Assembly: GCF_015207425.1 (NCBI RefSeq)
Contig: NZ_JADEWZ010000006.1
Location: 1 to 64,000 of the forward strand
Length of the DNA stretch: 64,000 nucleotides
Direction of reading: 5' to 3'
Source: Lusitaniella coriacea LEGE 07157
GTDB taxonomy: Bacteria; Cyanobacteriota; Cyanobacteriia; Cyanobacteriales; Spirulinaceae
Position numbers and translations under genes: made by a program. Position 1 is the stretch's first letter. Each line of letters begins with the position of its first letter. Below are positions 4,410 through 15,345 of this stretch, piece by piece. Under the pieces are notes generated by a model. The model worked only from the letters and a program-made list of their open reading frames with translations, made no database searches and had not been told where the DNA came from.

Positions 4410-4481
4410 TCCTCAGTAGCTCAGTGGTAGAGCGGTCGGCTGTTAACCGATTGGTCGCAAGTTCGAATCTTGCCTGGGGAG
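4410..4481 (+). tRNA. tRNA-Asn (GTT)
   Basis: 72-nt cloverleaf without encoded CCA. The acceptor arms TCCTCAG (4410-4416) and CTGGGGA (4474-4480) pair with one T-G wobble; the discriminator base is G at 4481. The anticodon loop CTGTTAA is flanked by GTCGG/CCGAT, giving anticodon GTT. The T-arm carries GTTCGAAT. Confidence 0.95.
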
Positions 4482-5459: not shown

Positions 5460-8400
5460 ATGAGTGTACTGCCCGGTTATCAAATAGCAGAAACCCTTCA
5501 CATCAGCGCTCAAAAAATTATTCATCGGGGTTTAAGGGAGAGCGATCGCGTACCCGTCGTGATTAAAGCACTTAAAGCTGAATATCCATCTCTTGACGCG
5601 ATCGCACGCATCCAATACGAATACCAGATCGCCGCAAATCTTCACGTTGAAGGGATCGTTCAAGCCCTAGGTTTAGAGAAATATCAGAACGGCTATGCGC
5701 TGATCCTAGAAGATATTGGCGGCAAATCTCTCAAACAAATCTTTACAACCAAACCTCCTTCAATCATTGAAGTATTGAAGATTGCGGTAAAAGTCGTGCA
5801 AGCTCTCGGACAACTGCACCAACACCGGATTATCCACAAAGATATCAAACCCTCCAATATCATCTTCAACCCCATCACAGAGCAAGTCAAAATCTCTGAC
5901 TTTAGCATTGCAACCTATTTAACAAGAGGCGTTCGACAACCCGATGCAAAGATGCAACTGGAGGGAACGCTGGCGTATATGCCCCCAGAACAAACCGGAC
6001 GAATTGATTGTCCCCTAGACTACCGCAGCGACTTCTATTCCCTAGGGGTAACTCTATACGAAATGTTAACGGGTCAGTTGCCCTTTGACGCGATCGAACC
6101 CCTGGAATTAATTCACTGTCACATCGCCGTTTTACCCGTCCCTCCCCATCAAATCAACACAGCCATTCCAGAAGTCGTATCGAACATTGTGATGAAACTG
6201 CTGGCTAAAAATGCAGAAGACCGATATCAAAGCGCATTGGGACTCAAGATCGACCTAGAACAGTGTTTGCATCAATTGCAAGAATGCGGGCAGGTTGAGA
6301 ACTTTATTATCGGGGGGCGCGATCGTTCCAGTCAATTTCTCATTCCTCAAAAACTCTATGGACGAGAGGAAGAAGTAGCAACCCTATTGCAAGCATTTGC
6401 AAGAGTCTCGCAAGAAAGTTCGGAACTCAGCGACCAATCCTTCACCTCGTCATCCCGTCGCCCCGTCACCCCATCTTTCCAAACCCCTTCGCAAAGCGAA
6501 TTAGTACTTATTTCAGGTTACTCTGGCGTTGGAAAAAGCGCGATCGTCAACGAAATTCGCAAACCCATCGCCGCAGCACGAGGATATTTTATCGCAGGTA
6601 AATTCGACCAATTTCAACGCGATATTCCCTATTCAGCAATCGTTCAAGCCTTTGGTTCCTTAATTCGGCAACTCTTAACCGAACCCGCAGAAAAAATTGC
6701 CCTCTGGCAAGAAAAACTACGATCGCGCCTGGGGGACAACGGACAAGTTATCGCAGAAGTCATCCCCGAAGTCGAACTGATTATCGGCACTCAACCCTCC
6801 ATACTCCAACTAGGTGCAACCGAAACACAAAACCGCTTTAATCAAGTCTTCCAAAACTTTGTTCGGACTTTTGCACAACCCGAACATCCCCTCGTACTCT
6901 TTCTAGACGATCTCCAGTGGGCAGATTTAGCCTCTTTGAAACTCCTCCAACTCTTAATGACTGACTCAGACAGTCAATCTTTGCTCGCGATCGGAGCCTA
7001 CCGCGACAACGAAGTCAGCGCAACTCACCCCTTCATACAAACCCTTGAGAAACTAGAAGAAAATCGCGCGATCGTTCGTCAACTCATCCTCCAACCCCTA
7101 AAACTCGAACACGTCAGTCAACTCATTTCCGATACCCTCCACTGTCACCCTGACAACTGTCAGGCAGCTCACTGCCAACCCGAACGTCAAAAACAGCTTA
7201 TAGAACTACTCTTCCACCAAACTGGTGGAAACCCATTCTTCTTAACTCAACTTCTCCAAACCCTACACGACGAAAAAGTTTTTACCTTTGACTTCAACAC
7301 AGATTCTTGGCAGTGGGAAATCGAGAAAATACACGCTCTTGGCATCACAAACCAAAATATTGTCGAACTCGTTAATAGAAGCCTCAAAAAACTGTCTCCA
7401 AAAACTCAGAACGCCCTAAAATTAAGCGCCTGCATCGGTAATTCTTTCAACTTAGGGACGCTAGCAACAATTTATAAAAAATCCCCAGCAGATACAGCAA
7501 AAGAACTCTGGGAAGCCATTCAAGCCGGACTAATTATTCCCCTAAGTGGTGCGAGTAAAACTACATCCATTACCGAAGAAATCAACCTCACGCCGACACG
7601 ACAGACAACGAACTCTACAGAGCTAACAATTGCCTACAAATTCATTCACGATCGCGTACAGCAAGCAGCCTATTCCTTGATTTCTGACACCGAGAAAACA
7701 CAACTTCACCTCAAAATCGGTCAACTCCTTCTCGCTGACACCCCCTCTGAAGCAATTGAAGAGAATATTTTTGATATTGTCAATCAACTCAATATTGGAA
7801 TGCAATTAATTTCCAATTTGACAGAAAAAAACGAACTTGCCAAACTTAACCTTATTGCGGGCAAAAAAGCCAAAGCCTCCAGCGCTTACGAAGCAGCATT
7901 AAAATACCTCAGAATTGGCTTGAGTTTGCTATCAGAATTAAGCTGGGAAATGCACTATACCCTTACCTACAATCTTTATATCGAACTTCTAGAAGCAGAA
8001 TATATTAACACCAATGTTGAAGAATTCTCTCATCTCTCAGAGATTGCCATGTCAAACACTAAAAACATATTAGATAAATCAAAAATATATGAACTCAGGA
8101 TTTCTCACTATTTCACACAAAATCAGATACAACAATCCTTGGATTCAGGTCTAGAAGCTCTAGATTTACTTGGAATGACAATTCCAAAACACCCAAGCAT
8201 TCCAAGGATTTTTCTTGAGTTCATGAAAGTAAAGTTTCTCAAAGGACACAAAAAAATTGAAGATTTATCTTCTCTATCAAAAATGAAAGATTCTCATAAA
8301 ATAAAAGCAATTAATATACTAAAATCTATTATTCCAGCTACATTTACAACCGATCCAAAGCTGTTTCTTTTAGTTACTTTCAAGATGACCTATTTATCAC

Positions 8401-10985
8401 TAAAGCATGGAAATGCAATACTTTCTTGCTGTGGATATAGCTGTCTCGGCTTAGTTTATTGTGCTGTTTTTGCAAATCCAGAAAAAGGATATCGTTATGG
8501 AGAATTAAGCTTAAATTTACTCGAAAAATTCCAAACAAAAGAAACGAAATCTTTTTTATATGCAACTTTTAATATGTTTGTTTGTCACTGGAAAGAACCA
8601 ATTAGTAAAAATCTAGAAGGATTTCTTAAAGGGGTTGAAATCGGTCAAGTTCTAGGAGACATAGAAAACACTTGTCATTGTGCCGTTTTTTATTGCAGTT
8701 ACTTGTTTTTAAGCGGTAATAGTTTGAAATTTGTTCGTGAAAAGCAGAGTGTTTTAACTGTTATGATTGAGAAATACAAACAAAACTTTCAGCTCAATCA
8801 AGCTCAATTGTGGAGCCAAGTAACCTTGAATTTACAAGGAGAATCATCTTGCCCATCTATTTTGTCCGGAGAAAAATTCAACAAAGAAGAGATTTTACCT
8901 TTATTGATAGAAACAAAAGACAACATGGGAATTTTTTCCACTCATCTTGCTGAATTATTTTTAGCTTATACATTTAAAGACTATGATCGCGCCTTGAAAA
9001 AAGCAACTTTAGCAGAACAACACGAACAAGGTTCAATGGGAACTGCTTATATTCCTGTATTTAAATTTTTCTATTCTCTAGCACTATTAGCTCTATATCC
9101 CACCGCTTCAAAACGAGAACAAAAAAAATATCTCAAAAAAGTTACGGCAAATCAGAAACAAATGAAACATTGGGCTAACCATTGTTCGGTTAATTATAAA
9201 CATAAGTACGAACTTGTTGAAGCAGAAAAAGCAAGAATTTTAGGGCAGACGGAAAAAGCCGCAAAATTGTATGACCGAGCAATTAAGAGTGCAAATAGTT
9301 CTGGTTACACCCAGGAGGAAGCACTCGCCAACGAACTTGCAGCAGAGTTTTATTTCTCACGTGGAATGGATAAGTTTGCTCGAATGTACCTGCACGATGC
9401 TTATCATGGTTATTTACGCTGGGGAGCGCAGGCAAAAGTAGATGATTTGGAATTAAGGTATCCCGAATGGCTCTTTTTATTCCTTACAGAAGAAACACAA
9501 GCAGATGAGGAGATGATATTCCAGAGAACGGCAACGACAACAATGAGTCGAAACGGTTCGAGTGCGTTGGAACTAGCGACAGTAATGAAAGCAACTCAAG
9601 CAATCTCAGGAGAAATTGTTCTTGACAAGCTATTAAATCAGTTGATGCAAATTTCGATCGAAAATGCAGGAGCGCAAAAAGGTTTGCTGTTCTTAATTCA
9701 GGATAATTCTCTTATTGTTGCGGCTGAAGTAGAAGTGGAACGCGAAGAAGAGATCGACCTACCTTTTATTCCCATATCTATGTATTCAAATGCACCAATC
9801 TCTTTGATTAATTACGTGCATCGAACCCAAGAAGAAGTCGTATTAAACCAAGCAACAACAGAAGGACTATTTACAAACGATCCTTATATTACTCAGTACC
9901 AACCGCAGTCTATCCTAGGATTGCCAATTTTCTATCAAGGGAAGCTCATCAGTATTCTCTATTTAGAAAATCGTTTGACTCAGGGAGCATTTACGCGCGA
10001 TCGCTTAGAATTGTTATACCTGCTAGCAACTCAAGCGGCGATCTCTATTGAAAATTCACTTCTCTATACTTCCCTAGAAGAAAAAGTTGCAACTCGAACT
10101 CAGGAATTGAATGTAAAAAATAAACATCTCGAACAAACTCTCTCAGAATTACAACAGACGCAACTTCAACTGATTCAAAGCGAAAAAATGTCCAGTTTGG
10201 GTCAACTGGTTGCAGGAATTGCTCACGAAGTGAATAATCCCGTTAATTTTATCTATGGGAATCTCACTCATGTTGATGAATATACGCGAGATTTACTCAA
10301 CCTTGTTGACCTTTACCAACAGTACTATTCTCAACCCATTGAAGAGATTCAAGACGAGATAGAAGAAATGGAGTTAGAGTTTTTGGTTGAAGATTTACCA
10401 AAAGTTCTCAATTCCATGAAAATTGGTGCTACTCGGATTAAAGAAATTGTACAATCTTTGCGAAACTTCTCTCGCTTGGATGAATCGGAGATGAAAGCAG
10501 TTGATATCCATGAAGGATTGGAAAGTACGCTCCTAATTTTGCGAAGTCGTTTGAAAACTAAACCCAGTCATCTAACGATTGAAGTTATTCAAGAGTACGA
10601 TGAACTTCCTCTCGTGGAGTGTTACGCAGGAGCGTTGAATCAAGTTTTTCTAAATGTGTTGATCAATGCAATTGATGCTTTAGAAGAAGCAATAGTGCAA
10701 TCTGAAATTCCCAATCCACAGATTCGGATTTGTACTGAGGTAGTGAATGATAACCAAATCACCATCCGAATTGCTGATAATGGTATTGGGATGACAGAAG
10801 AAGTCAAACGAAAATTGTTCGACCCCTTCTTTACTACCAAACCCATAGGTCAAGGAACGGGAATGGGAATGTCAATTAGCTACAAAATTGTGGTTGAGAA
10901 ACATTGTGGGAAGTTTAAGTGCATTTCCACTCCCAGTCAAGGTACAGAATTTGTGATTCAGATACCAATTCAACAACATCTTTAA
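5460..10985 (+). CDS. Ser/Thr kinase - AAA ATPase - GAF - sensor histidine kinase fusion
   Basis: 1841 residues. Order: Ser/Thr kinase (about 1-275; VVIKAL lysine, HKDIKPSN catalytic loop near 126-133, SDFS replacing DFG); AAA/STAND-like ATPase (Walker A GYSGVGKS near 353, Walker B LVLFLDDLQWAD near 478); a long AT-rich helical-repeat region (about 800-1330); GAF (about 1385-1535); coiled coil; HisKA with phospho-acceptor His in GIAHEVNNPVNF near 1588; HATPase with N-box NVLINAIDALEE, ADNGIGM and GQGTGMGMSIS. This is the architecture of cyanobacterial HstK-type proteins. No receiver domain is attached, so a separate response regulator is expected. Ser/Thr kinase activity is plausible despite the DFS variant. 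Confidence 0.93.
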   Translation: MSVLPGYQIAETLHISAQKIIHRGLRESDRVPVVIKALKAEYPSLDAIARIQYEYQIAANLHVEGIVQALGLEKYQNGYALILEDIGGKSLKQIFTTKPPSIIEVLKIAVKVVQALGQLHQHRIIHKDIKPSNIIFNPITEQVKISDFSIATYLTRGVRQPDAKMQLEGTLAYMPPEQTGRIDCPLDYRSDFYSLGVTLYEMLTGQLPFDAIEPLELIHCHIAVLPVPPHQINTAIPEVVSNIVMKLLAKNAEDRYQSALGLKIDLEQCLHQLQECGQVENFIIGGRDRSSQFLIPQKLYGREEEVATLLQAFARVSQESSELSDQSFTSSSRRPVTPSFQTPSQSELVLISGYSGVGKSAIVNEIRKPIAAARGYFIAGKFDQFQRDIPYSAIVQAFGSLIRQLLTEPAEKIALWQEKLRSRLGDNGQVIAEVIPEVELIIGTQPSILQLGATETQNRFNQVFQNFVRTFAQPEHPLVLFLDDLQWADLASLKLLQLLMTDSDSQSLLAIGAYRDNEVSATHPFIQTLEKLEENRAIVRQLILQPLKLEHVSQLISDTLHCHPDNCQAAHCQPERQKQLIELLFHQTGGNPFFLTQLLQTLHDEKVFTFDFNTDSWQWEIEKIHALGITNQNIVELVNRSLKKLSPKTQNALKLSACIGNSFNLGTLATIYKKSPADTAKELWEAIQAGLIIPLSGASKTTSITEEINLTPTRQTTNSTELTIAYKFIHDRVQQAAYSLISDTEKTQLHLKIGQLLLADTPSEAIEENIFDIVNQLNIGMQLISNLTEKNELAKLNLIAGKKAKASSAYEAALKYLRIGLSLLSELSWEMHYTLTYNLYIELLEAEYINTNVEEFSHLSEIAMSNTKNILDKSKIYELRISHYFTQNQIQQSLDSGLEALDLLGMTIPKHPSIPRIFLEFMKVKFLKGHKKIEDLSSLSKMKDSHKIKAINILKSIIPATFTTDPKLFLLVTFKMTYLSLKHGNAILSCCGYSCLGLVYCAVFANPEKGYRYGELSLNLLEKFQTKETKSFLYATFNMFVCHWKEPISKNLEGFLKGVEIGQVLGDIENTCHCAVFYCSYLFLSGNSLKFVREKQSVLTVMIEKYKQNFQLNQAQLWSQVTLNLQGESSCPSILSGEKFNKEEILPLLIETKDNMGIFSTHLAELFLAYTFKDYDRALKKATLAEQHEQGSMGTAYIPVFKFFYSLALLALYPTASKREQKKYLKKVTANQKQMKHWANHCSVNYKHKYELVEAEKARILGQTEKAAKLYDRAIKSANSSGYTQEEALANELAAEFYFSRGMDKFARMYLHDAYHGYLRWGAQAKVDDLELRYPEWLFLFLTEETQADEEMIFQRTATTTMSRNGSSALELATVMKATQAISGEIVLDKLLNQLMQISIENAGAQKGLLFLIQDNSLIVAAEVEVEREEEIDLPFIPISMYSNAPISLINYVHRTQEEVVLNQATTEGLFTNDPYITQYQPQSILGLPIFYQGKLISILYLENRLTQGAFTRDRLELLYLLATQAAISIENSLLYTSLEEKVATRTQELNVKNKHLEQTLSELQQTQLQLIQSEKMSSLGQLVAGIAHEVNNPVNFIYGNLTHVDEYTRDLLNLVDLYQQYYSQPIEEIQDEIEEMELEFLVEDLPKVLNSMKIGATRIKEIVQSLRNFSRLDESEMKAVDIHEGLESTLLILRSRLKTKPSHLTIEVIQEYDELPLVECYAGALNQVFLNVLINAIDALEEAIVQSEIPNPQIRICTEVVNDNQITIRIADNGIGMTEEVKRKLFDPFFTTKPIGQGTGMGMSISYKIVVEKHCGKFKCISTPSQGTEFVIQIPIQQHL

Positions 10986-11011
10986 TTCTAAACTGATGCT
11001 TGAAATATCCG

Positions 11012-11032
11012 TTGGCTATAGAACATAGCCAA
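11012..11032. terminator. Hairpin between convergent genes
   Basis: TTGGCTAT, loop AGAAC, ATAGCCAA: a perfect 8-bp stem lying between the stop of the hybrid kinase (plus) and the stop of the methyltransferase (minus). There is no strong T-tract on either side, so termination strength is uncertain. Confidence 0.5.
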
Positions 11033-11037
11033 GACAT

Positions 11038-11991
11038 TTACTTGTGCTTGATAACAGCATAAAAAGTAGGGATTTTAAAACCTCCCTCAAGCAACTGCAA
11101 ATCAGCATCGCTATACAGAAAATCTTCTCCAGAATCTAATATTTCACAATCGGGAAAGAAGTCTTTTATCTTCTCTTCTGTGATATCGCCTGGTCTGATA
11201 CCATGCTCGATTACAAGCGCTAGTTCGCGAGGAGGTTCCCCGTATAACTCAATAAGCGAGTTTAAATAGTCTGTTGCGCCAGCACCTAATTCGATTAAGT
11301 AAAGAATCCCTGTTTTGCCTAAAAGAATTTTCAGGGATTGTGCAAAGCGATCGCGATGCTCTGGAGAAATGTGGTGAAACCCTGTCCTCATATAAATATT
11401 CGCATCGCCAATTTCAACATGAAGAGCAGTGGCTTGTTCTGGCTTGAGAGCATCGAGAGTACGGTACTCAATATTAGGAGCGCTATTATGTTTCTGCGCC
11501 ATTTCTACAGCGCTTTGTGCTACATCAACACCAATCAGTCGAGGAAAATGATCTGCTAGAAAACGGGTTTGGGTACCGTTGCCACACGCCATATCAATGA
11601 GTGGTAATTGGGGAGACATTAAGTCTTTAAAACGAGGCAAGTCTAAAGCAGCAGCTTTTTCGGCATTGCTATCCCACAAAATAGGGTTAGACAAGTTGTA
11701 GGTTTTACTCCAATAGTTTTCCCAAGCAGAAGCAATGTTAATATCTGGTCTTTCCGCTAGATCGATATCTTCCTCCAACTGTCGCTCTGGCAGAATGACT
11801 TTTTTGAGCATATACTCAATGGTTTCTTGTCTCACCCAACCCCTATGCGAGATAATTTCACCAAAACGCATTGTGTTTTCTTTTTGTTCACTTAGCGCTA
11901 TGTCTACTTGATCGAGTGTAATTAGACCTGCCTCTACTAAGTATGCTCCTATCGGCTTTGCAGTTGGTTTAGTTTCAATCGCTTGCATCAT
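11038..11991 (-). CDS. SAM-dependent methyltransferase with N-terminal MshEN-like module
   Basis: 317 residues in two parts. Residues 12-71 form a small module starting KPIGAYLVEAGLIT and ending KVILPER; it looks like the N-terminal domain of type II secretion/pilus ATPases (GspE/MshE), and an almost identical copy forms the C-terminus of the upstream flavoprotein. From about residue 95 comes a class I methyltransferase: motif I LIDMACGNGTQT near 127-135, acidic loop GVDVAQSAVEMA, and FHHISPEHRDRFAQ. A Shine-Dalgarno AAGGAG precedes the tandem ATGs at 11991/11988. Last gene of the 14741-11038 cluster, 124 bp after the flavoprotein. Substrate unknown; small-molecule modification is an inference from context. 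Confidence 0.85.
   Translation of the reverse strand: MMQAIETKPTAKPIGAYLVEAGLITLDQVDIALSEQKENTMRFGEIISHRGWVRQETIEYMLKKVILPERQLEEDIDLAERPDINIASAWENYWSKTYNLSNPILWDSNAEKAAALDLPRFKDLMSPQLPLIDMACGNGTQTRFLADHFPRLIGVDVAQSAVEMAQKHNSAPNIEYRTLDALKPEQATALHVEIGDANIYMRTGFHHISPEHRDRFAQSLKILLGKTGILYLIELGAGATDYLNSLIELYGEPPRELALVIEHGIRPGDITEEKIKDFFPDCEILDSGEDFLYSDADLQLLEGGFKIPTFYAVIKHK
11779..11958 (-). repeat. Duplicated 60-codon module, copy in the methyltransferase
   Basis: Sixty codons encoding KPIGAYLVEAG to ILPER. About 40 of 60 residues are identical by eye to the flavoprotein copy at 12152-12331, and long stretches are also identical at DNA level (for example GAGATAATTTCACCAA and GACCTGCCTCTACTAA-like blocks), so the duplication is probably recent or kept by gene conversion. 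Confidence 0.8.
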
Positions 11992-12115
11992 TTTACTCCT
12001 TAGTTTTACTTCAAAATTTGTACTTTGCAGGGTTAATGAAAGAGATAGAATAAACTCTGAATGACGTTATGATGCTGTCAACAGTTTATCTGGCTCTCTC
12101 TCCGAAAGAATAGTT

Positions 12116-13891
12116 TCAAGCCGACGCAACTAATTCGCTTGTAATCAATCCCTCTCGCTCTGGCAGAATAACTTTCTCCATCATATATTCAATCGTACTT
12201 TGACTCACCCAACCTTGCTGAGAGATAATTTCACCAAGACGTATTGGTGTTGTTTTTTGCTTATCAAGTGCAACTTTGACCTGTGTGACAGTTAATAAAC
12301 CTGCCTCTACTAAATAAGCTCCTAATGGTTTGACTTCTCTTAAAAGTTGAGCCTGCAAAAATGTTTGCAAGGGAATGATATGTCCGTCTTCTATCCATTC
12401 ACTAGCAATATCTTCAATGACATGATGCTCTGCAATAAGTTGATTTCCACAGAAGCGACGAACAATTGGATGAAGGCTAGGACTTTCTGCTGCATTATTT
12501 ACATCATCTTTATGTACGCGCACTATAGCAAAAGGATCGGGATATTCTGCTAATATTTCGTGTCCAAATTCCAGAGATATTATGTAGTAGTGTTCGTTTG
12601 TATTGAGTTCGCTATCGTGGATGTAGTCAAGAGGCATTTCTTGATAGTGTTGAGCCACTCGTCCATTATCTGAAATAACAATCAGATCGCAGAGAAATCC
12701 TGTTTGTTGCCATAGTCCCGAACTGCGGTTAACTCGCTCAATAATTGCCTTAGTTAAGCCTTGAGCAGTGGGTTCTACCAATTGAGAGGGAAGTTCTTTC
12801 CCATTGTACTTTCGCTCTAAAATATGGTGCAGCGCTCGAATATTGTAGCGGAAGCCGTGGATAAAGCCAGATTGCTTTTTCTTGTAATCGCGCTGGTGCA
12901 TCAATACCCCAGCAAAATATAAGTCTTTTACATTGGTTGACTCCCATTCGCTAGTTTGTTCGGGAAAACGGTCATTGATGGTGAGCTTCGGACGACAGGA
13001 TTCGTCAAATAGAGAATCATCAAAGCGGAACCCCGCACAGACAATTACGCGATCGTAGATTAGATCTTCTTGCTCTCCATTAGCGTGTGTGTAGAAGAAG
13101 GATACTACAAACTTTTCATTCTGATACTCAATTTTGCTAACAATTGCATTAAGAACAACATTCTGCGATTTCAGTTGATATGTATCGAGAAAATTGTTAT
13201 TAACTGCTCGTAAATGACCTACATACCGACTCTTCCATGCCATCTCAATGGGTGTTGGACTCACAACATGGATTAGTGATGTAGTTGCTACTAGGTTATC
13301 TGCTGTTTCAAACCCAGAATTACCTTTACCAATAATTAATACCTTCTGATTCGCAAAATCTTCAGGATCGATAGATACATTAACATAGTTTTCCGCTAGT
13401 TCGATGCCGGGAATTGGTGGAATATAAGGTTTGGCAAATCCTGTTGCAACGATCAAGCGTTCACTGCTATAAACGTTTCCATTGCTATCTATAACCATGA
13501 AATCGTCATTTTTGGCAATTCTGACAATTTTGCAACCATATTTTATGTTTAGGTCGTAATAGCTTACAAAATCACCAAGATACCGAACAAATTCTTTTGC
13601 TTGAGGAAAATAATCCCTGCTATAGTTTTTTAATAACAAGTTTTCGTTGTCACACAGAAGGGAGTTCCAATCCCACCTGAGATTGATTTCTGCATCATCA
13701 TATCCCGTGTATAATTTGTTAATTGAAATTAATTTTCCGTGGCGAGGAAACTTCTTGAAAGATGCTCCAGGAGAATCTTCTCCTTCAAGAATCAAATAGC
13801 TGCGATTGGCTTTTTCTAGAAAGTAGCCTAGCTGTAGGCCTGCTGGCCCAGCACCAATAATCACATAATCAAACTGAGTGTTTGAATTCAT
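12116..13891 (-). CDS. FOXRED2-like FAD-dependent oxidoreductase with C-terminal MshEN-like module
   Basis: 591 residues. N-terminal FAD-binding GAGPAGLQLG (residues 13-22), then the block KLISINKLYTGYDDAEINLR and the phrase WDWNSLL, which match the FOXRED2/ERFAD family. A second dinucleotide motif GKGNSGFETAD near 186 indicates NAD(P)H binding, and ATGFAKP is the flavin-monooxygenase-type motif. Residues about 521-580 are a 60-residue module (PLGAYLVEAGLLT to VILPER), near-identical to the N-terminus of the methyltransferase. A probable SD AAGGGAA precedes the ATG. It may hydroxylate or oxidise a small molecule together with the adjacent oxidase; a thioredoxin-reductase-like role is less likely because no CxxC redox pair is seen. 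Confidence 0.85.
   Translation of the reverse strand: MNSNTQFDYVIIGAGPAGLQLGYFLEKANRSYLILEGEDSPGASFKKFPRHGKLISINKLYTGYDDAEINLRWDWNSLLCDNENLLLKNYSRDYFPQAKEFVRYLGDFVSYYDLNIKYGCKIVRIAKNDDFMVIDSNGNVYSSERLIVATGFAKPYIPPIPGIELAENYVNVSIDPEDFANQKVLIIGKGNSGFETADNLVATTSLIHVVSPTPIEMAWKSRYVGHLRAVNNNFLDTYQLKSQNVVLNAIVSKIEYQNEKFVVSFFYTHANGEQEDLIYDRVIVCAGFRFDDSLFDESCRPKLTINDRFPEQTSEWESTNVKDLYFAGVLMHQRDYKKKQSGFIHGFRYNIRALHHILERKYNGKELPSQLVEPTAQGLTKAIIERVNRSSGLWQQTGFLCDLIVISDNGRVAQHYQEMPLDYIHDSELNTNEHYYIISLEFGHEILAEYPDPFAIVRVHKDDVNNAAESPSLHPIVRRFCGNQLIAEHHVIEDIASEWIEDGHIIPLQTFLQAQLLREVKPLGAYLVEAGLLTVTQVKVALDKQKTTPIRLGEIISQQGWVSQSTIEYMMEKVILPEREGLITSELVASA
12152..12331 (-). repeat. Duplicated 60-codon module, copy in the flavoprotein
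   Basis: Partner of 11779-11958, here at the C-terminal end of the FOXRED2-like protein. The pattern (LVEAG-LLT--QV--AL--Q, then LGEII---GWV-Q-TIEY) is that of the small helical domain at the start of GspE/MshE ATPases. It may be a docking or ligand-binding unit shared by enzymes of this pathway. Confidence 0.8.
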
Positions 13892-14024
13892 TTCCCTTAT
13901 CCCTTAAGCTCTATTATTTGAGCAGACGACCCTAGAAAATTTCGAGTGTTACGAAACTCAGAAGATGTAATCTCAAAAATTCCGAACCCTACCCGTTCTT
14001 TTAAATAGTTGTGTAGCCAGTAGA

Positions 14025-14741
14025 TTAGGCAAGCACTAACGATGGATTGAAGTGATATTTCTCGGAGTATGCCATCATTTCTTGCATTGCATCTGTGAAA
14101 ATCGCAAAAACTTTTTCGACTAAATCAAATGCTTTCTCCCGATTGTCCTGAGTCAATCTTATGCTTTTGATAAACTCTTCCATATTGTCTGTTCCAGTGG
14201 CATGACCCGTTTCTACAAGATAATGATATCTGCCAAAGTAGCGATATCGCTGTTTGGATATTTTTCCAAGTTCCTGGGCTACCTCTGATGTCCAAAATAG
14301 TGCAACATTTCCTGTCGCTTCTATTGCTTCGATGACAACTAACTTCAAAACTGGATCTGTGTGAGCAATGCAAAGTGCAGCAAGTCGAGTACAGACTTGG
14401 CGCGTTTTAGAGGTTTCATCACTCCACATAAATCTTAGGGCATCGCTGAAGGGCATTTCGCGATCGATTCCCAAGGTTTTTAAGTCTTCAAGAAACCATT
14501 CCCAATGGTTATCATCTTCGTAAGTATGTAGATTAATGATTTCTTCTATTTTGCTAGTAGCTGGTTCTTTTCTCAGCACATACTTATTTAAGTCAGAAAA
14601 TCCCATCACTAAAGGAGCTGCACAGGGGGCAAAAGCGAGTCGCTGTTTGGGGTCTATACTTTTATCTTGCATAAACTTGAATAGCTGCAACTGAGCAAAT
14701 TCGCGTTTTTTCTCTTCAATTAACGCTAAAACTTCTTTCAT
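14025..14741 (-). CDS. Heme-oxygenase-like diiron oxidase (HDO) family protein
   Basis: 238 residues, all-helical by composition. The segment LHTYEDDNHWEWFLEDL (about 71-87) carries a His/Glu/Asp set typical of heme-oxygenase-like oxidases; later VVIEAIEATGN (about 131-141) and LVETGHATGTDN (about 173-184) supply further Glu and His ligands at the expected spacing. Members of this superfamily (UndA, SznF central domain, PolF and others) use a diiron centre and O2 for N-oxygenation, desaturation or oxidative cleavage. It is the first gene of the cluster, 133 bp upstream of the flavoprotein. The actual reaction is unknown. A TenA/PqqC-type non-oxidase member of the same fold is the alternative. 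Confidence 0.65.
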   Translation of the reverse strand: MKEVLALIEEKKREFAQLQLFKFMQDKSIDPKQRLAFAPCAAPLVMGFSDLNKYVLRKEPATSKIEEIINLHTYEDDNHWEWFLEDLKTLGIDREMPFSDALRFMWSDETSKTRQVCTRLAALCIAHTDPVLKLVVIEAIEATGNVALFWTSEVAQELGKISKQRYRYFGRYHYLVETGHATGTDNMEEFIKSIRLTQDNREKAFDLVEKVFAIFTDAMQEMMAYSEKYHFNPSLVLA

Positions 14742-15146
14742 GGTGGGGGTTGATGAAAATACTAACGAAATACTTACTCAATCGTAATTTTTCTGAAAAA
14801 AAATACATCCGAAAATACACTGAAATGTGGAAAACTCATAGAAACATCAAGTCTGGCTTTCAACAATGACACTGAAATGAATGCATACCAAAGCTTGCAC
14901 TGACTTATTTGAATTGCTAATTGCTTTTTCTAAATTCTTTTTGTACGTGTTAATGATCAAAAAAAGCAGCTTTGAATGTTCAAAATAAGTATTTTTTGTA
15001 AATATATATACTTAGATTGGTTTTTTGCGCTTAGAGCAAAATTAAAATATCTTGTGTATTGGGCTTATCTTCGTACAAATCTCTTGGGCGACCAATTGGG
15101 AACGAGAAACCCAATATTAACGCTGTGATTTTGGCGTAAATTCAGA
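14742..15146. other. AT-rich intergenic region upstream of the oxidase cluster
   Basis: About 400 bp with markedly higher AT content than the surrounding genes and no HIP1 site. It must contain the promoter of the minus-strand cluster starting at 14741. I see no convincing gene, strong hairpin or long repeat in it. Confidence 0.5.
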
Positions 15147-15239
15147 ATGCGTACTACATTCACTGCTGTCTGGCTCGATCCTAAAACGTGCAAACTCGTA
15201 GTTGGTAAGGAATTCAAGCAAAAACCCCGCATCCTTTAA
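15147..15239 (+). CDS. Small 30-codon open frame, doubtful
   Basis: ATG at 15147, stop at 15237-15239, reading MRTTFTAVWLDPK and continuing to KQKPRIL. The composition looks protein-like and the frame ends inside the arm of the tRNA-Leu terminator. There is no clear Shine-Dalgarno. It may be a gene remnant or chance; I do not recognise it. Confidence 0.2.
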   Translation: MRTTFTAVWLDPKTCKLVVGKEFKQKPRIL

Positions 15240-15256
15240 GCGAATGCAGGGTTTTT
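15220..15256 (-). terminator. Terminator of tRNA-Leu
   Basis: On the minus strand AAAAACCCTGCAT pairs with ATGCGGGGTTTTT around a loop, and the 3' arm ends in a T-run (TTTTTGCTT). It lies directly after the 3' end of tRNA-Leu. The A-rich 5' arm makes it usable from the other strand as well. Confidence 0.7.
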
Positions 15257-15260
15257 AAGA

Positions 15261-15345
15261 TGGGGGTGGAGAGACTTGAACTCTCACGACCGATAAAGGT
15301 CAACGGATTTTAAGTCCGCAGCGTCTACCATTCCGCCACACCCCC
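15261..15345 (-). tRNA. tRNA-Leu (TAA), without intron
   Basis: 85-nt class II tRNA. Acceptor GGGGGTG (345-339 of the 15 kb block) pairs with CACCCCC; discriminator A; no CCA encoded. The anticodon stem GCGGA/TCCGT encloses loop CTTAAAA, so the anticodon is TAA. A long variable arm (TTGACCTTTATCGGTC) follows. The loop is continuous: the group I intron that many cyanobacteria carry in this anticodon is absent. Confidence 0.95.

Follow-up and report, generated by a model that had tools for sequence, protein, structure and literature searches.

Positions 11,038 to 14,741 of a 64,000-nucleotide stretch of the Lusitaniella coriacea LEGE 07157 genome (contig NZ_JADEWZ010000006.1, positions 1 to 64,000; hereafter the window) hold three minus-strand genes that probably constitute a compact, regulated small-molecule operon built around a diiron oxidase (HDO) of the AetD/SktA type; we put the probability of this reading at about 0.6. 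In order of transcription the open reading frames (ORFs) encode the HDO (14025-14741, 238 aa), a two-Rossmann flavoprotein using flavin adenine dinucleotide (FAD) and NAD(P) (12116-13891, 591 aa) and an S-adenosylmethionine (SAM) methyltransferase (11038-11991, 317 aa), separated by 133 and 124 bp. The flavoprotein and the methyltransferase are tagged with the same additional domain, which is of the MshEN type known from cyclic di-GMP (c-di-GMP) receptors, and the operon converges on a hybrid kinase gene (5460-10985, plus strand, 1841 aa) that ends 52 bp away. The combination of an AetD relative, two tagged enzymes and a neighbouring sensor kinase suggests that the product is probably a regulated small molecule.

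The HDO would act with O2 and cleave an aromatic amino acid at its side chain, tryptophan, substituted or not, being the likeliest substrate; the flavoprotein would then oxidise the HDO product, and the methyltransferase would methylate it. The first step would have its precedents in AetD, which gives an indole nitrile, and in SktA, which is said to convert 5-bromotryptophan to 5-bromoskatole, reportedly with cyanide as a further product (Adak et al. 2025, title).

Membership of the AetD family was evident from comparison with solved structures. A phmmer search matched residues 1-228 of the HDO to AetD with an E-value of 1.5e-57, a profile of 28 HDO relatives matched AetD at 3.9e-78, and the significant PDB matches of the HDO were AetD entries only. 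Pfam and NCBIfam scans gave the protein no name, and six of the 28 relatives matched Haem_oxygenas_2 (best E 1.6e-06). Published comparisons, here and below, draw on five papers (PMC11611611, PMC10654658, PMC13108848, PMC5013675, PMC12210266). AetD holds two irons through D76, H79, E140, H172, E176 and H179 and converts 5,7-dibromo-tryptophan to an indole nitrile (PMC11611611). The metal site of the HDO was placed by alignment to the solved AetD structures, and its predicted ligands are D76, H79, E141, H173, E177 and H180, a site of the 3-His/3-carboxylate type with HxxxExxH on core helix 3. All six are kept in 26 of 29 aligned family members (the exceptions are L064, L065 and L070), and Y168 aligns with Y167 of AetD, which binds the substrate carboxylate. 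A structure model of the HDO made from two sequences had a mean predicted local distance difference test score (pLDDT) of 52.7, too low for use, and a seven-helix fold is predicted from homology only.

Of 292 cyanobacterial genomes, 23 had a relative of the HDO (E<=1e-3), and a search of the family to which the window belongs gave 2 of 13 genomes. At E<=1e-40 there were 28 loci out of 32 places found, and the gene content of these points to aromatic substrates. A flavin halogenase lies beside the HDO gene in six of the 28 (L051, L052, L057, L060, L061 and L068), and at L059 (9001-10844) the HDO gene is followed, before a kinase gene, by an aromatic prenyltransferase gene (PTase_Orf2, E 2.9e-48), making this locus a candidate prenylated-indole pathway. 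Other neighbours across the loci are a flavin monooxygenase (FMO), a short-chain dehydrogenase/reductase (SDR), a methyltransferase or an aminotransferase. An aromatic-amino-acid small-molecule pathway is therefore likely. The L052 halogenase is homologous to tryptophan-5-halogenase (8fov, E 2.5e-183) and the L052 HDO has exactly T/T/F at the three positions that distinguish AetD from SktA, so L052 may be an SktA-type cluster.

Three of the relatives (L064, L065 and L070) have lost iron ligands and have no kinase of the window's kind nearby, and possibly represent a non-catalytic branch of the family; these loci and the truncated L075 occupy a conserved place near a glutamate-kinase-like gene. 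AetD-family genes were also seen outside the cyanobacteria, on Streptomyces clavuligerus pSCL4 (37%, L163:9001-9699), in Cupriavidus sp. EM10 (43%, L162:8926-9696) and on the Escherichia coli IncX4 plasmid pEC244_4 (L164:9001-10503). The last encodes a 'hypothetical protein' of 500 aa made up of two HDO domains of the AetD family in tandem (29% identity, E 2e-23), in which HxxxExxH was seen by eye in the first domain and not in the second. Similar matches came from 332 plasmid records, including 266 of Escherichia, 22 of Salmonella and 36 of Piscirickettsia; one record was opened.

The flavoprotein matched Pfam Pyr_redox_3 (E 4.5e-52) and has dinucleotide motifs at residues 13 (GAGPAG) and 188 (GKGNSG). 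Among solved structures it is closest to small flavin monooxygenases (4a9w, for example), and it also resembles thioredoxin-reductase-like enzymes. Class B flavin monooxygenases (FMO and Baeyer-Villiger types) carry the fingerprint FxGxxxHxxx(Y/W) before the second Rossmann motif; the flavoprotein lacks it in this usual place, and its sole match, at residue 326, falls after the second motif, with the His kept in four of six relatives. Identity as an AetF-type halogenase was considered and rejected, as judged by entry names and without an AetF alignment, there being no halogenase-named entry among the PDB matches at E<=1e-6 or 1e-5. The protein is rare, occurring in four of 386 genomes of the phylum (E<=1e-60) and ten of 368 genomes of the order (E<=1e-80). 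In four of those ten (the window's genome, G251, G174 and G407, the last being the same metagenome-assembled genome as L042) its gene adjoins an HDO gene, at the window, L042, L044 and L045, and among nine of the ten that were examined five flavoproteins were not beside an HDO (L046 and L178-L181). Two of these relatives (L178 and L180) sit in other clusters with an amidohydrolase-like gene and methyltransferases, labelled by eye; the NRPS-like and radical-SAM-like labels given to genes at both loci, likewise by eye, carry no weight in the argument. One match was found on plasmids, in Nonomuraea gerenzanensis (49%), where the flavoprotein relative has an AMP-ligase and a P450 as neighbours. 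The methyltransferase matched Pfam Methyltransf_25 (E 5.2e-10), and its solved relatives are 3ggd (E 2.3e-92) and CyaF 9k2f (E 3.3e-28).

The domain shared by the two tailoring enzymes comprises about 60 residues, at the C-terminus of the flavoprotein (12176-12328) and the N-terminus of the methyltransferase (11800-11955), and the two copies are 65% identical over 61 residues. Both exceeded the cut-off of 38 bits for NCBIfam NF053729 ('cyclic di-GMP-binding domain, MshE-related'), with 47.8 bits for the flavoprotein and 50 bits for the methyltransferase, and they are the top two of ten NF053729 matches in the genome. A model made from four sequences predicts a four-helix fold (pLDDT 83.7), and in a Foldseek search of the PDB ranks 1-7 were all c-di-GMP domains of MshE or PilF (best E 0.21). 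The modelled domain superposes on 5htl at 1.5-1.6 Å over 53-54 columns, and its predicted fold is thus MshEN-like. The relaxed MshEN pattern consists of two 24-residue motifs (PMC5013675); motif 1 fits it in both proteins, with the 5-residue spacer kept. With such a domain on both enzymes, c-di-GMP would probably switch or co-localise both tailoring steps. Cyanobacteria commonly have related domains (27 of 386 genomes at E<=1e-9), and none of 26 ORFs with a related domain that were read by eye was an evident metabolic enzyme. The enzymes seen with the domain are the window pair, the L042 flavoprotein and an SDR of Rhizonema (L043) only, and both L042 and L043 also adjoin a kinase of the window's kind.

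The kinase contains, in order, Ser/Thr kinase (Pkinase), AAA_16, GAF, HisKA and HATPase domains of Pfam, the make-up of a hybrid kinase. A kinase of this kind was present within 5 kb of the HDO gene, as coded by hand, at 13 of the 28 loci, where 0.65 would be expected from uniform placing (P 7e-15, a value that ignores relatedness). Near a control GST-family gene it was present in none of 20 stretches from the same genome set (Fisher P 2e-4); the control used 20 of 26 GST places, with three stretches shortened by contig ends. The four places left out of the 28 (L072-L075, E>1e-40) had no such kinase. In 13 of 15 linked loci (L042 and Calothrix NIES-4101 being added from outside the 28) the kinase gene is downstream of and convergent with the HDO genes; the exceptions are L051, where it is divergent, and L069, where it is in tandem. 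A kinase tree (n=66) was made by a quick method and included 52 non-adjacent kinases out of 204 places in 22 genomes. At least three well-supported changes, and five in total, were needed to explain the HDO-near kinases, which therefore come from at least three separate lineages. The pairing thus arose or was kept more than once and was not passed on as one inherited block. The convergent, GAF-bearing kinase may therefore be considered part of the cassette, in which it would probably control or sense the pathway.

Zero to three swappable tailoring genes lie between the HDO and kinase genes. There is nothing between them at L047, L049, L050 and L058, and a halogenase-type protein is encoded there at L061 and L068; a halogenase, an FMO and an opposite-strand SDR at L052; an FMO and an SDR at L161; the flavoprotein at L042; and the flavoprotein and an FMO at L044. 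At L045 the flavoprotein gene precedes the HDO gene, which is followed by a methyltransferase, an aminotransferase and then transposase-like ORFs. A GAF domain was found in all ten kinases scanned (the L043 kinase is a fragment). Nine of these end in histidine-kinase domains; the tenth, at L042 (L042:11842-17661), consists of Ser/Thr kinase, AAA_16 and GAF domains and ends in GGDEF-EAL, domains that turn over c-di-GMP, with no histidine kinase. Of the relatives, L042 is the one whose tagged flavoprotein is most similar to that of the window.

The base composition sets the locus apart. The GC content of the three-gene stretch is 0.399, compared with 0.468 in the window, and its 3.7 kb contain one HIP1 site (GCGATCGC), compared with 81 in all 64 kb. 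The low-GC, HIP1-poor stretch extends past the three genes to positions 5460-15260 (no strand), where the remainder of the window predicts 13.9 HIP1 sites and four were found (Poisson P 0.002), and it lies between tRNA-Asn (4410-4481) and tRNA-Leu (15261-15345) genes; it may have been acquired as an island. Upstream of the operon is an AT-rich non-coding stretch (14742-15260, minus strand, GC 0.347), presumed to be the promoter region. Promoter patterns in the scan were near chance (16 found, 12.0 ± 3.5 expected), as was the outcome of a terminator scan. An earlier note on this DNA had described an AT-richer, HIP1-poor group of three same-strand genes for an HDO-type diiron enzyme, an FAD flavoprotein and a SAM methyltransferase, with no carrier-protein gene, and all of this was borne out: the ORFs are open where it placed them, the three assignments agree with the matches given above, and the six matches to the carrier-protein family PF00550 in the genome lie on contigs C5 and C20, with none in the window's stretch of C6. 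Its placing of the cluster between ordinary genes fails on the side of the kinase, the kinase gene being itself inside the low-GC, HIP1-poor stretch.

Several observations weigh against a regulated, tryptophan-derived product. The operon contains no halogenase or other aet-type gene. The pocket of the HDO differs from that of AetD at five positions (F44 to L44, I146 to A147, M139 to I140, A142 to T143 and S214 to F215), so that the residues of AetD proper (M139, A142, S214 and the indole clamp F44 and I146) are absent; tryptophan may therefore not be the substrate, nor a nitrile necessarily the product. The weight of these AetD/SktA pocket residues for function is a suggestion of the papers, which give T139, T142 and F214 as the SktA residues at the three distinguishing positions (PMC13108848). 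The HDO matches two of the three (T143 and F215, the third being I140), a weakly diagnostic result, as 24 of the 29 family members have T143 and 25 have F215. These residues are the rule in the family, making AetD the odd member at these positions and an SktA-like reading of the HDO weak. The methyltransferase core had no match beyond its own genome among 292 genomes (E<=1e-30), and the triple was seen in no other genome; HDO and flavoprotein genes are adjacent in three others, so the pair is conserved and the full triple is not. The earlier note had named the absence of the three as neighbours from every other genome as a result that would refute it, and on these data that test went half against it. 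As for control by c-di-GMP, motif 2 of the shared domain breaks the relaxed pattern twice in each copy, at a hydrophobic position (7) and at the closing Gln (24), no Foldseek match of the domain model reached E 0.001, the isolated domain had no Pfam match, and the output of the window's kinase is a histidine kinase, not GGDEF-EAL. Because motif 2 is incomplete, the domain is named MshEN-type and is not taken as a proven receptor. Finally, such a kinase is missing from the surroundings of 15 of the 28 HDO loci (L048, L053 and L064 being shortened by a contig end), and L045 is a weak case among the other 13, its kinase being distant (29%) and behind the transposase-like ORFs.

The shared domain could instead be a docking module only, which binds no nucleotide and tethers the two enzymes to each other or to some partner. 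This is a possibility to be taken seriously, if a tentative one: near-identical copies on two consecutive enzymes would suit such a role, as would the degenerate motif 2 in both and the many cyanobacterial proteins of other build that have related domains. However, motif 1 fits the relaxed pattern exactly and keeps its spacer, the two copies have the best c-di-GMP-motif scores of the genome, and a GGDEF-EAL kinase lies beside the tagged L042 flavoprotein, all of which speak against mere docking.

It is unlikely, though consistent with part of the kinase data, that HDO and convergent kinase form a signalling unit of maker and receiver. The HDO would then be the one-step synthase of a diffusible amino-acid-derived signal, an indole-type product perhaps accompanied by cyanide, which the GAF domain of the kinase would read; the tailoring enzymes would be strain-specific dialects, and in the window's branch c-di-GMP would gate the tailoring enzymes themselves. 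The four loci made up solely of HDO and convergent kinase, all with six intact ligands, fit this idea, as do the GAF domain in every kinase scanned and the same placing of kinases from several lineages. Against it, GAF domains are said to be general in such kinases, there is neither ligand evidence nor an exporter, and genomes hold from 2 to 28 hybrid kinases (22 genomes), most of them away from any HDO.

It also seems improbable that the HDO performs other chemistry, such as the N-oxygenation of an aliphatic amino acid or amine, even though HDOs with identical ligands run very different reactions (PMC13108848) and the pocket is unlike that of AetD. The HDO belongs to the AetD family and is not near SznF, HrmI or BesC, and the genes found beside family members encode tryptophan-type halogenases and an aromatic prenyltransferase. 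N-oxygenation, the example offered in the earlier note, is not the closest precedent, because AetD and SktA, the only characterised family members in the literature searched, act on (bromo)tryptophan by cleaving C-C bonds (PMC11611611, PMC13108848). Of the two product types that note thought plausible, an amino-acid-derived small molecule is the best reading and nothing points to a lipid; its enzyme identities stand, and what it missed was the MshEN-type domain that two of the enzymes share and the neighbouring kinase. Least likely is a kinase with no role in the pathway, present by chance or as a hitch-hiker on a mobile island: the composition of 5460-15260 and its position between two tRNA genes, the mobile DNA or plasmids at L045 and two Calothrix cases and the 15 loci without a kinase speak for this, but are outweighed by the excess over expectation and controls, the several kinase lineages and the recurrent convergent placement.

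If the favoured reading of a regulated small-molecule operon is true, the locus would represent a natural-product pathway switched at the enzyme level by c-di-GMP, via a receptor-type domain on two consecutive tailoring enzymes. The relatives carry very different tailoring genes and few are characterised; a sensor kinase kept beside the AetD family from several lineages would be a direct lead to the purpose of the products. Neither the kinase link nor MshEN-type domains on natural-product enzymes were found among the open-access papers listed (10 of 833 matches in one search), the kinase link not having been a search target in itself, and no claim is made that they are unpublished.

The system most like the operon is that of AetD, the nitrile synthase of aetokthonotoxin, the "eagle-killer" toxin, with which the HDO shares its sequence family, the six ligands and the carboxylate-binding Tyr. 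The operon differs in having no halogenase, P450 or tryptophanase, and in tailoring enzymes that bear MshEN-type domains. The comparison with SktA was made by reported residues only: the HDO has the equivalents of T142 and F214, and Ile in place of T139. With the MshEN/GSPII-B c-di-GMP receptors (MshE, PilF) the shared domain has in common two helical half-motifs, the 5-residue spacer and a superposing predicted fold; it differs in the first Arg of motif 1, which is Pro, in the last Gln of motif 2, which is Val, and in its fusion partners, a flavoprotein and a methyltransferase where the known receptors have an ATPase or glycosyltransferase. The kinase has the Pkinase-AAA_16-GAF-HisKA-HATPase order of the cyanobacterial hybrid Ser/Thr-histidine kinases, from which the window's kind is set apart by its convergent position at the ends of AetD-family operons and, in the case of the L042 kinase, by GGDEF-EAL in place of the histidine-kinase output.

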